DNA of 64,000 nt from Carnobacterium iners (GTDB lineage Bacteria; Bacillota; Bacilli; Lactobacillales; Carnobacteriaceae). The DNA is taken from the NCBI RefSeq assembly GCF_900177385.1, contig NZ_FXBJ01000002.1, forward strand, positions 186,001 to 250,000, written 5' to 3'. Every line of letters begins with the position of its first letter. The first letter of the stretch is position 1. The notes below the pieces were generated by a model. That model did not search any database. It saw only the letters and a program-made list of their open reading frames with translations, and was not told the DNA's origin. Below, one piece after another: positions 48,332 through 53,622 of this stretch. The position numbers and the translations under genes are program-made.

Positions 48332-49369
48332 TTAAAGGGTTATCCCTCTTAAAATCTGATTGGCGGCACCTTCGTCTGTGATTAACCACGTTTGGGAAGG
48401 TACATTTTTCATATGTGCTTCAATCGCCTTGGCTTTAGAATTTCCTCCTGCAACTGCGATCACACTTGGTATTCGTGTAAGATCTTTTGATTGCATACCA
48501 ATACGTGGGATTTTATAAACAACTTCCCCATTCTGGTTATAGAATTCTCCGAAAGCTTCACCAACTGCTGCTTTGTTTTTAATCAGAGCTAGAACTTCTT
48601 TGCTCATACCTCTGCGCTTTGCCATATGTGTTGCATCTCCAATACTATAGAGAACACAGTTAGCTTGTTCCACCAGATCTAGCGTTTTTTTGATCTCTGG
48701 TTCTTTTAAGAGCGGCTTGTACGTTTCTTCGCTCACTTGTTCTGGTACATATAAAACACGGTTTTTCCCACCAGTTCTCTTAGCCATCTGTGCACTAACA
48801 GCGTTAGCTTGGATTTCTACTGACTCACCTAGTCCACCTCTAGCTGGTACAAACAATAATTTACGGTGGTAGGAAAGACTTCCATCCATATGATTCGCAA
48901 CTTCTGCCATTGTTGTTCCGCCCATAACAGCAATGATGTTCATTCCTTCAGGTAATAATACCTTCAACGAATCCATTGTTGCGCGTCCTAACTCATCTTG
49001 AACCTTGGGCTGCTCCTCAACATTTCCAGAAACAATTACACAATGTTCTATCTTAAAATAGGTGGCTAATTGATTTTCTTTCTCTCGCATCCCCAATAAT
49101 TGGCCCATTATCTGATCTAAATCATGGTATACACTTTCTCCACTTACGGTTAGCTGCATGCCTACTTTAGATGTTTTAATTAAGCCCTGTCTTTTCAATG
49201 CGTCTACTTCAGTTCTTAGTACACGCTCAGTAATATCCATTTTGTCGGCCAGCACTCTACGCCCAATAGGACCTAGTAAATAAACATTGCGCAAAATTTG
49301 ATACCGTCTCCTCAGCGTATCCATAATGTCCGGTGTAACTTTTTCTACGATAGACAATATATCCTGCAT
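48332..49369 (-). CDS. cggR: Central glycolytic genes regulator CggR
   Basis: A 345-residue SorC-family repressor. The N-terminal winged helix is REIL-type sequence (LLGPIGRRVLADKMDITERVLRTEVDALKRQGLI). The effector domain has AVMGGTTMAEVANHM, YVPARGGLG-like FVPARGGLGESVEIQANAVSAQMA, YSIGDATHMAKRRGM and VAVAGGNSKAKAIEAHM. In Bacillus it represses the gap operon until fructose-1,6-bisphosphate binds. It is the first gene of this operon, with a CggR-type operator just upstream, so autoregulation is expected. The start follows GAGGG. Confidence 0.95.
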   Translation of the reverse strand: MQDILSIVEKVTPDIMDTLRRRYQILRNVYLLGPIGRRVLADKMDITERVLRTEVDALKRQGLIKTSKVGMQLTVSGESVYHDLDQIMGQLLGMREKENQLATYFKIEHCVIVSGNVEEQPKVQDELGRATMDSLKVLLPEGMNIIAVMGGTTMAEVANHMDGSLSYHRKLLFVPARGGLGESVEIQANAVSAQMAKRTGGKNRVLYVPEQVSEETYKPLLKEPEIKKTLDLVEQANCVLYSIGDATHMAKRRGMSKEVLALIKNKAAVGEAFGEFYNQNGEVVYKIPRIGMQSKDLTRIPSVIAVAGGNSKAKAIEAHMKNVPSQTWLITDEGAANQILRGITL

Positions 49370-49425: not shown

Positions 49426-49655
49426 TTGTTGACTAAAAAAACAAGAGATTTAAGTGAAACAAGACATTCAGTTAACTGTATGCTCTACTCTTGTTTTCCA
49501 CTGCAGTCTAAAAATGTGCACTGCTTTTATTCCTTACTTCTACCATTATATCATCTAGTCTTTTTAGTTTCAAGCTTTAAGGGGCAAACCAAGGAATATT
49601 ATTCGCATTTTTTTACCTCACTCTAAAGAATGAATAGTAACAATATTGTTTGAAT

Positions 49656-49704
49656 AAAAATAAAACCGCTCAGCAGACATCGTCTATTGAGTGGTTTTAT
49701 TTTT
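49656..49704. terminator. Terminator of the heliorhodopsin gene
   Basis: AAAAATAAAACCGCTCA / TGAGTGGTTTTATTTTT, 17-base arms with a loop of 15 bases and T-rich flanks. Confidence 0.85.
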
Positions 49705-49718
49705 ATTATTTTAGACTC

Positions 49719-50504
49719 TTAACCAGGCTGCATAACTCCTGCAAACGCTAACCATGCTAATACAGATTTAGCAACTAAACTTAAAATGATGTAGGCACGT
49801 TCTCCATAAAGATAATTTTTCCAGGGACCGACTTTTTTATACTGTAAAATCATATTTACTGGAAACAGATTAAAGAAAACAAAATAGGTTCCTGCTAAAG
49901 CATAAACGAACCAAGGAACTTCTGATGGATCAGCATTTCCGAATGCGTACAATAAAATAACTATCCATGGAACGAAACCGGCAATTGTTCCAAAAATAAA
50001 CGACTTCCAATCTGTTGACTTTCTGTAGTAAGTCATTTCCTCCATGACTAAACCGAATAGATTCATCGTGGCATTAAGAACAAACATTAAAATAAGTGAT
50101 CCAATGTCATATACACCAAACAACATCGCTATTAAAATAATCATTAATGACGAACTAATCGCATATTCATACCATCTAAAGCGATTCATATTTCTTTCTA
50201 AATCTTTATTGTATATTTTATTTCCCCAAGGCGTCACAATAATAAAATGTGCTAGTGCAGAGATAAATAAAAATAAAGAGACCATTATCCCGAATGGAGC
50301 ACTAAAAAGTTCTTTTTCTTCAGTTAACAATCTCATCTGAGTTGTATCAAATGTAAGGAAATAAGAGCGAATAGGAATCTTAAAATCAGCAATTCGATCA
50401 ATAAAAATAGCAAATCCAAGCATTAAGCTCCCTTGGACTAAATGCAATAACCCCATAATAATGTTAAATCTTTTTAACGATTTGAAATCTATTACTTTAG
50501 CCAT
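49719..50504 (-). CDS. Heliorhodopsin
   Basis: A 261-residue seven-helix protein of the heliorhodopsin family, retinal-binding light sensors inverted in the membrane relative to type 1 rhodopsins. Family marks: NIIMGLLHLVQGSLML in helix 1 (His21), LAHFIIVTPWG (His86), RFRWYEYAISSSLMI in helix 3 with the counterion-type Glu113, MNLFGLVMEE in helix 4, FIFGTIAGFVPWIVI in helix 5, and the Schiff-base lysine Lys246 in LSLVAKSVLAW of helix 7. The start at 50504 is chosen because AAAGGGGTGG lies just upstream. It appears monocistronic. No retinal-synthesis gene is in the window. Function is not known for this group beyond photosensory proposals. Confidence 0.9.
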   Translation of the reverse strand: MAKVIDFKSLKRFNIIMGLLHLVQGSLMLGFAIFIDRIADFKIPIRSYFLTFDTTQMRLLTEEKELFSAPFGIMVSLFLFISALAHFIIVTPWGNKIYNKDLERNMNRFRWYEYAISSSLMIILIAMLFGVYDIGSLILMFVLNATMNLFGLVMEEMTYYRKSTDWKSFIFGTIAGFVPWIVILLYAFGNADPSEVPWFVYALAGTYFVFFNLFPVNMILQYKKVGPWKNYLYGERAYIILSLVAKSVLAWLAFAGVMQPG

Positions 50505-50527
50505 TAAAACCACCCCTTTTTTTAGTT

Positions 50528-50559
50528 AAACTAGAAATTTCATTTTGCTATTCTAGTTT
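50528..50559. promoter_or_regulatory. Inverted repeat in the heliorhodopsin leader
   Basis: AAACTAGAA-N14-TTCTAGTTT lies 24-55 bases before the start codon. A TATAAT on the minus strand at 50586-50591 would start transcription near 50579, putting this repeat in the transcript leader. It could be an operator or an RNA stem. Confidence 0.5.
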
Positions 50560-50702
50560 ACTATATTTCTTCTTTGTACACGCTTATTATACGCTTTTTC
50601 TATAAATATAACTATTTATATGCTTAGTTATTTAAAATTCTTGTCTTCTTTTTCATAACTAATGAGGTTATTTAGCTTGTATTTATTGATTAACCTATCC
50701 GA

Positions 50703-51245
50703 TTATTTATTAGCTGAATTTAATTCATTCTCAATTAAGATCTGCAGTTCATCTACTGTAATATGTTCATCAAAAACTTCATCCCCGATAAAAACTGATG
50801 GAACTAACTCTACGTTAGCTCGAACGGCTTCTTCAATAATACTAGCTATTTCTTTTTCATTTGGCTGTATCGTTAAACCGCGTTTTTCTTCAACGTAAGC
50901 TGCAATTTCATCCATACTGTTTAAGTTGCCCCATTCGCCTTGTTTCTCATAAAAGTAATCTATTTCTTTTAAAGCGACTTCAGGAGTAGAGTAATCTAGA
51001 TAACGATGAACGACGTTTCCTTTTCTCAAATGAGGTGTCTCCTTATTATAATGCTTAATGATTCGTTGCACTTTTCCTTCTTCTACATATTTAGCCAAGA
51101 GCTCCTTCGAATCATCATGCCATTTCTTACAAAAAGGACAACTTACGTTAATAAATTCAATAACTTTAACTGGTGCGTTAGCGTCTCCAATTTTCAATCC
51201 ATAAACAGTCTCTACTTCTTTTGCTTTTATTTTGCTAGTATCCAT
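50703..51245 (-). CDS. DsbA-like thioredoxin-fold protein
   Basis: A 180-residue protein with a CPFC active site (FINVSCPFCKKWHDDSKELL), a helical insertion, and the cis-proline region ELVPSVFIGDEVFDEH. There is no signal peptide or lipobox, so it is probably cytoplasmic, unlike secreted DsbA. It may be a thiol oxidoreductase or FrnE/YjbH-like adapter. It precedes the heliorhodopsin gene by about 200 bases in the same direction. AAAGGGG precedes the start. Confidence 0.85.
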   Translation of the reverse strand: MDTSKIKAKEVETVYGLKIGDANAPVKVIEFINVSCPFCKKWHDDSKELLAKYVEEGKVQRIIKHYNKETPHLRKGNVVHRYLDYSTPEVALKEIDYFYEKQGEWGNLNSMDEIAAYVEEKRGLTIQPNEKEIASIIEEAVRANVELVPSVFIGDEVFDEHITVDELQILIENELNSANK

Positions 51246-52533: not shown

Positions 52534-52570
52534 GGACTTGCTTATTTATAGCAAGTCTCTTTTATTTTTT
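52534..52570 (+). terminator. Terminator of the DUF898 gene
   Basis: GGACTTGCT-N7-AGCAAGTCTC followed by T4 and T7. It overlaps the 3' end of the convergent CPBP pseudogene. Confidence 0.8.
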
Positions 52571-53366
52571 TCTATAAACATTGTACGATTATAGAGTAAT
52601 CCTAAAATGACAGATACGATTAGTTCGATGATAAAAACTAAAAATACTTTCCAATTTAAATTTAGTTGTAAATAGCCTTCGCTGCTTATGTAAACAGCTA
52701 ACCCAATACATCCATTGAACCATGCATGACTTAAAATACAGAGAAATAAGTTTTTTGTGTATTTATAAATTGTCGTAAATGTGAAAGATAAAATCACTCC
52801 TAAAAATAAATATAATCCAAATGGTATGGCACTTTGTGGAGTCCCCTTTATTGCCCATAATGGTAGATGCCATATACTCCAAATAATCCCAACAATTATA
52901 ACAGATGGAAAATAACTAACTATTTTTTCTAATTTAGGTTGTAAATACCCACGCCAACCTAATTCCTCAAGTCCACCTCCAATAATAAAAATTGGAAAGT
53001 TAAGGAGCATATAAAAAATGAATATTGACTCCTTTATCCCAAACGCAATCCAAACCATAAAGAAACGTCAAATGATATAAAATCCAAATATTAACCACGA
53101 TTTTCTATCTATTTTCCTGTCAAAAATGAATTTTAAAAAAGATTTTTTGTTAGACTCTTTATTGAACGTTTGATAAATGATATAAGAGCTAAAGGCAGGT
53201 CCTAACCCACCAATTAACATGGGGATATAAAACAAAGGTTCACCGTACCAAAGAGCATTAAAATATCTATTGCTATAATAATAATTAGCCAAGACAACCA
53301 AGTTATAGAAAAAGTATATAGTAGAAAAAGTCCAATTTTCTTTAGCGAATGATTTGTTTGTTCCAT
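52546..53366 (-). pseudogene. CPBP-family intramembrane protease, interrupted
   Basis: A CPBP (CAAX protease/bacteriocin-processing) gene read in pieces. ATG at 53366 behind AAAGGAG gives MEQTNHSLKKIGLFLLYTFSITWLSWLI. One base appears lost in the A3/T3 run near 53250, and the sequence resumes as YGEPLFYIPMLIGGLGPAFSSYI. It then meets an in-frame TGA at 53068-53070 and continues in the same frame as MVWIAFGIKES... The catalytic motifs are intact: EELGWRGYLQPKL, WHLPLW and HAWFNG. Such proteases process prenylated or bacteriocin-type peptides or give immunity. With one frameshift and one stop it is probably not functional. Confidence 0.82.
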
Positions 53367-53622
53367 ATTTTAGCACTCCTTTAACTACTCGCGATTCCTT
53401 ACAACTATTTTCTAGATTATAGTAAAATTCCATACGTAAAAGGTGCCTATTTTCAAATTCCACTATGTTTTTCTAACTATCCATTGATTAGTTAGATTAA
53501 TAAAAATAAAAAAGCACCTACTGCCATAGAAGATGAAAAACTTCGACAATAGATGTTTTTATGGGAATTAGATAGTATAATTAAAAAAAACTGTTAAATC
53601 AGTATTTATACGTCTTAATAAA

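Follow-up and report, generated by a model that had tools for sequence, protein, structure and literature searches.

Heliorhodopsins are light-absorbing retinal proteins, the function of which is disputed. Among the described systems, TfHeR of Trichococcus flocculiformis binds and stimulates a photolyase, and its gene shares an operon with those for a class II photolyase and DUF2238 (PMC9769723). TaHeR (structure 6is6) and 48C12 (6su3) come from archaeal and actinobacterial hosts, respectively, and the MORN-HeR and Znf-HeR fusions (PMC8612252) carry an N-terminal extension on a heliorhodopsin core. Here we describe the heliorhodopsin gene of Carnobacterium iners, which lies within a 64,000-nucleotide stretch of DNA (the window) from a 2.57-Mb genome in three contigs.

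The window protein is ~58% identical to TfHeR, shares family PF18761 with it, and likewise comes from a Lactobacillales host with a photolyase in its genome. The two proteins belong to different lineages in the heliorhodopsin tree, however, and neither Trichococcus-type feature, a photolyase in the same operon or a photolyase of the class II CPD type, was found in the window genome, where the heliorhodopsin gene stands alone and the photolyase is class I and encoded 583 kb away. TaHeR and 48C12 resemble the window protein in fold (TM 0.83-0.90), counterion, Schiff-base lysine, and AB-loop beta hairpin but are only about 42-45% identical to it by structural alignment. Unlike the fusions, and unlike several Syntrophomonadaceae relatives of about 390-417 amino acids (aa), the window protein has no fused N-terminal domain, being 261 aa long with a Pfam match that starts at residue 10. 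The closest cultured Lactobacillales lineage is Alkalibacterium (loci L009-L013 and L015-L018), the heliorhodopsins of which are 72-78% identical and are also stand-alone; in six of nine cases, the genome has a class I photolyase from the clade of the window genome's enzyme. The Alkalibacterium genes differ in occupying another chromosomal site, and most of their genomes have a strong match to SQS_PSY (C30-type carotenoid synthase), whereas the window genome has none.

Identity and distribution of the protein

The initial annotation had placed the gene in the heliorhodopsin family and proposed a profile search as a check, which bore the assignment out: the 261-aa protein scored 340.1 bits against Pfam PF18761 (E 8e-102; cut-off, 26.7) and matched the NCBIfam HeR equivalog NF038020 over its full length at 314.6 bits (cut-off, 100). 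The key residues were also as first read, with His at positions 21 and 86, Glu at 113, and Lys at 246, and none of these columns varied in an alignment of 52 homologues. Lys246, on which the assignment had been staked beforehand, aligns with the Lys of TaHeR SLVAKSALAW in the PDB alignment, in which TaHeR 6is6 was the best of the solved heliorhodopsins, and Glu113 aligns with TaHeR Glu108, the position mutated in the E108D structure 7clj. Moreover, an AlphaFold (AF2) model computed from 52 sequences of the window and the loci (mean pLDDT, 91) showed the seven-helix heliorhodopsin fold with an AB-loop beta hairpin (strands 41-52 and 57-69). When the model was searched with Foldseek, TM scores of 0.89-0.90 were obtained to 6is6 and 7clj at ~44% identity, and the ten significant PDB matches were heliorhodopsins only, with type-1 rhodopsins much lower. 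By charge count, the four predicted inner segments hold 11 Lys plus Arg residues versus 5 in the outer segments, all 5 of which are in the AB loop, a distribution that fits an inverted topology (N-in/C-out). We conclude that the gene product is, with near certainty, a heliorhodopsin.

The title of the initial annotation implied surprise at such a gene in a fermentative Gram-positive bacterium, but heliorhodopsins have already been described in Bacillota, Trichococcus among them (PMC9769723, PMC8612252). The window protein is an ordinary-looking heliorhodopsin, of a kind already known in this part of the Bacillota. Its closest named relative, from Carnobacterium sp. HKST-UBA02, is 98% identical, and no paper that mentions heliorhodopsin together with Carnobacterium was found in the searchable literature. 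Carriers make up three of the five genomes in the genus and 5 of 18 in the family, and a 399-genome sample of the class gave matches above cut-off in two genomes, including the window's own.

In a tree built by a quick method, the window protein grouped with two clostridial MAG sequences beside Alkalibacterium (14-row set; SH-aLRT, 99), and the heliorhodopsins of the family's other carrier genus (g3, represented by carriers G008 and G011) clustered with those of Enterococcus aquimarinus and Trichococcus. The heliorhodopsins of the two genera thus fall in different tree groups, and therefore two lineages entered or survived in one family. We note that the Alkalibacterium putridalgicola gene (L018, 6001-6780) reads as two open reading frames (ORFs) of 186 and 77 aa, reflecting a frameshift or a sequencing error. 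A general rule confines heliorhodopsins to monoderms. Sequences that share 67-70% identity with the window protein and form clades of their own were seen at L023, L024, and L027 (labelled Spirochaetales) and at L028 and L031 (labelled Thermotogota), and one of these genes is on a 230-kb Sphaerochaeta contig. If contig binning is correct, these genes from outer-envelope phyla strain the monoderm-only rule.

The locus, its selection, and its expression signals

Consistent with the arrangement first described, the heliorhodopsin gene stands alone between dsbA and cggR (Table 1). Three carrier congeners share the order clpP-dsbA-HeR-cggR-gap-pgk-tpi, and the non-carriers G004 and G006 have clpP-dsbA-cggR-gap-pgk-tpi, in which dsbA and cggR are about 365-410 nt apart. 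Gene order is thus the same with and without heliorhodopsin, which makes it a clean single-gene presence/absence. We conclude that the heliorhodopsin gene, as a unit by itself, either was inserted between dsbA and cggR or was lost from there. Between congeners, heliorhodopsin is 95-98% identical in amino acid sequence at high synonymous distances, with a dN/dS of 0.016-0.039 that resembles that of clpP and is lower than that of dsbA (0.07-0.09; 77-87% aa identity). Transfer of heliorhodopsin between congeners was considered and set aside: synonymous distances were slightly discordant, on small numbers, in that the window genome was closer to G005 than to G007 for heliorhodopsin and the opposite held for the neighbours. 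We conclude that heliorhodopsin is under strong purifying selection. Elsewhere in the window, adjacent ORFs of 131 and 170 aa at 52546-53463 (-) resemble, by reading, one frameshifted CPBP-type membrane protease.

Table 1. Features of the heliorhodopsin locus (window coordinates)
Feature	Position	Strand	Sequence	Basis or remark
cggR (neighbour outside the system)	48332-49369	-		Heads gap-pgk-tpi glycolytic run; clpP-dsbA-(HeR)-cggR-gap order in five genomes
Rho-independent-type terminator 3' of heliorhodopsin	49653-49709	-	AATAAAACCACTC...GAGCGGTTTTATTTTTATT	Hairpin and T-rich tail; kept in G005 and G007
Heliorhodopsin gene	49719-50504	-		261 codons plus stop, ATG start; Pfam/NCBIfam profiles, predicted fold, invariant residues
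Ribosome-binding site	50510-50518	-	AAGGGGTGG	Direct reading; AGGAGTG in two congeners
Leader hairpin, just 5' of ribosome-binding site	50528-50559	-	AAACTAGAA-(14 nt)-TTCTAGTTT	Inverted repeat; comparison with G007
Probable -10 box	50586-50591	-	TATAAT	Consensus; TACAAT in two congeners
20-bp palindrome over -35 region, candidate operator	50601-50620		TATAAATAGTTATATTTATA	Block kept in three congeners
DsbA-like thiol protein (Thioredoxin_4; neighbour outside the system)	50703-51245	-		PF13462, 124 bits; same site in non-carrier congeners

The initial annotation had taken a terminator of the gene's own and an inverted repeat in its leader as signs of regulated expression. Both elements are real, although the terminator was missed by a simple scan because its hairpin loop is long, and the probable -10 box was not listed by a promoter scan because the -35 element is weak. 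The leader hairpin differs in G007 by one compensatory change, in which the outermost pair is G-C instead of A-T, and a different hairpin occupies the leader position in G005. Compared with shuffled sequences, the leader fold gave a z of -1.5 in the window, which is not strongly better than chance, and of -2.9 in G007. The promoter palindrome lies in one of the best-conserved blocks of the leader among three congeners and has perfect 10-bp arms in G005, but it is only weakly above chance because the sequence is AT rich. No Rfam element was found in the leader, a tRNA being the sole Rfam match in the region. Further copies of the palindrome were found nowhere else in the genome, and the motifs were not found upstream of the photolyase gene. 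A regulon defined by the palindrome was rejected on account of this single site. Judged from these sequence elements, the regulated expression suggested by the initial annotation is possible.

Co-occurrence with photolyase

Because TfHeR had been reported to bind and help photolyase (PMC9769723), genomes were searched for photolyase (PF00875). Within the family, photolyase was present in five of five heliorhodopsin carriers and 4 of 13 non-carriers. In genera g1 (Carnobacterium) and g3, the distribution was five of five carriers versus none of six non-carriers (Fisher p 0.002, unweighted), a co-variation that amounts to only two independent within-genus contrasts. Across the Lactobacillales, all 22 carriers searched had a photolyase versus 104 of 395 genomes (26%) order-wide, for a Fisher p of 3e-14 that ignores relatedness and in which heliorhodopsin status was unchecked in most of the 373 others. 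Photolyase was the sole cross-genome associate examined and thus has no ranking against other genes.

The photolyase of the window genome is a class I CPD type enzyme, as its best PDB match was E. coli 1dnp and PRK10674 scored far above phr2; moreover, a tblastn search with it against Trichococcus photolyases returned no match. The gene is located at G000:C2:818711, with heliorhodopsin at 235731, and is surrounded by the end of a multicopper oxidase gene (by reading), DUF302, DUF1541, and cadD. In G005, photolyase is at another site, adjoining a cadmium-type ATPase. The separation of 583 kb and the different site in G005 indicate that heliorhodopsin and photolyase are not physically linked.

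In the photolyase tree, a single clade (support, 100/99) unites the class I enzymes of carriers in Carnobacterium (g1), in g3, and in six of nine Alkalibacterium with those of five other genomes (G451, G519, G592, G618, and G762). One of those five, G618, belongs to another family and was found to have a heliorhodopsin gene ~5 kb away from the photolyase gene; the G618 and window heliorhodopsins share 75% identity. The G618 find is a check on the lead that could have failed. The trees are nevertheless incongruent in detail: by heliorhodopsin, g3 falls with Trichococcus and Enterococcus aquimarinus, and by photolyase it falls with G618 within the Carnobacterium/Alkalibacterium clade. Also counting against a fixed partnership, the photolyase here is an unlinked class I enzyme and the tested Trichococcus partner an operon-encoded class II enzyme. 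Moreover, photolyase was not found in three isolate genomes of anaerobic Clostridia that carry heliorhodopsin (Parasporobacterium paucivorans, [Clostridium] fimetarium, and Anaerobium acetethylicum), and thus photolyase cannot be a general heliorhodopsin partner.

Two photolyase loci had further features. In G618 (L196, 1913-11205), a cadmium-type ATPase, heliorhodopsin, two glycosyltransferases, a xanthine/uracil-type permease, and the class I photolyase are found together, and the ATPase and DUF1541-like genes resemble the photolyase neighbours in G005 and the window genome, which suggests a mobile stress island. In G762 (L184, 3342-10586), a C30-type carotenoid cluster (crtN, crtM, crtN-like, glycosyltransferase, and acyltransferase, by reading) is directly followed by a class I photolyase, split in two ORFs, to which the Carnobacterium enzyme is most closely related.

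One way to account for the co-occurrence is that heliorhodopsin and the class I CPD photolyase clade of the Lactobacillales function as a pair even without chromosomal linkage, in which the membrane sensor, loaded with scavenged retinal, would enhance or widen the light response of DNA repair. We regard such a pairing as unlikely overall, and a shared sunlit habitat accounts for the pattern equally well. If the pairing were true, heliorhodopsin and photolyase would have been gained and lost together, and the single tested case, with a class II enzyme in the same operon, would be extended to another photolyase class.

Retinal supply and the proposed role

The initial annotation had noted that no retinal-producing gene lies in the window, and the same was found genome-wide. 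Phytoene/dehydrosqualene synthase (SQS_PSY, PF00494) had no match in the genome, whereas seven of the control genomes and several relatives matched; since this is the first committed enzyme, the genome has no known route to beta-carotene. The remaining profiles were searched in 39 genome entries, namely 35 heliorhodopsin carriers (34 distinct genomes, including the window's) and four family non-carriers included for comparison. No RPE65-type oxygenase (PF03055) was detected in any of the 39, with two controls positive. No BCD/Blh match (PF15461) exceeded the cut-off in the 39 or in the 399-genome class sample, a search of unproven sensitivity because no positive control rang. Nine carrier genomes gave BCD matches, all below the cut-off, and the two inspected were by reading a YidC-like insertase and an ABC-type permease. 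We conclude that any retinal must come from outside. In g3, carriers G008 and G011 have only one partial SQS_PSY match (~88 bits) and non-carriers G009 and G010 have an additional strong match of the dehydrosqualene synthase type (~240 bits); pigment and photolyase may be alternating forms of light protection in that genus.

That the window genome and its carrier relatives make no retinal raises the alternative that heliorhodopsin works mainly without it, either as an apo-membrane protein or bound to a different small ligand. The lack of BCD and RPE65 matches above cut-off in the window genome and 33 other distinct carrier genomes is consistent with this alternative, but Lys246 and Glu113 are invariant in 52 of 52 sequences and the low dN/dS is as chromophore retention would require. 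Moreover, one report describes a bacterium that builds functional rhodopsins without known retinal genes (PMC7734400). A retinal-free role is therefore quite improbable, and we favor, as somewhat the better bet, a retinal-binding light sensor with a scavenged chromophore. By homology, such a sensor would be a seven-helix membrane protein with its N terminus inside, carrying all-trans retinal on Lys246 with Glu113 as the counterion. The cell would obtain the chromophore from its surroundings, either as retinal from animals, plants, or algae or as a carotenoid breakdown product. Light would then drive a slow photocycle, and the protein, if it behaves like other heliorhodopsins, would alter a partner's activity through direct contact and would not act as a pump. 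The best partner candidate in the genome may be the distant class I CPD photolyase, a step much weaker than sensing and scavenging; with that partner, heliorhodopsin might serve sunlight or UV tolerance.

The sensor could instead act on another partner, such as glutamine synthetase, a transporter, or a two-component system, with the photolyase pattern due to shared selection in sunlit habitats. We give this account an even chance. Other heliorhodopsins regulate a glutamine synthetase (PMC9529153) and an ABC transporter (PMC11109279), heliorhodopsins are enriched near two-component systems (PMC8612252), their neighbours vary between lineages, and some carriers have no photolyase, but heliorhodopsin stands alone in this clade and its context offers no alternative candidate. 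Among 85 carrier loci, no neighbour family was common beyond lineages, and the top other cluster occurred in 11. The DsbA-like neighbour, through which the initial annotation had linked the gene to oxidative stress, was rejected as such a candidate. Control of a thiol or oxidative-stress module with that protein would fit the general enrichment of redox genes near heliorhodopsins (PMC8612252) and the position of dsbA immediately upstream in all three carrier congeners, but it is largely refuted and highly improbable, as G004 and G006 keep dsbA next to cggR at the heliorhodopsin-empty site and the neighbour is thus uninformative on the role of heliorhodopsin. Moreover, dsbA evolves faster, a gap of ~199 nt with promoter-like sequence separates the two genes, and the dsbA homologue (cluster c24) occurs only in L001, L002, L003, and L006, with none found at carrier loci of other genera.

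For the favored reading of a light sensor with scavenged retinal, C. iners is a clean system: a lactic acid bacterium with one heliorhodopsin, no retinal synthesis, and some close relatives that naturally lack the gene at the same site. Such a system permits retinal to be supplied or withheld and carriers to be compared with non-carriers, and the co-variation with photolyase provides a concrete partner candidate, of an enzyme class other than that of the published case.
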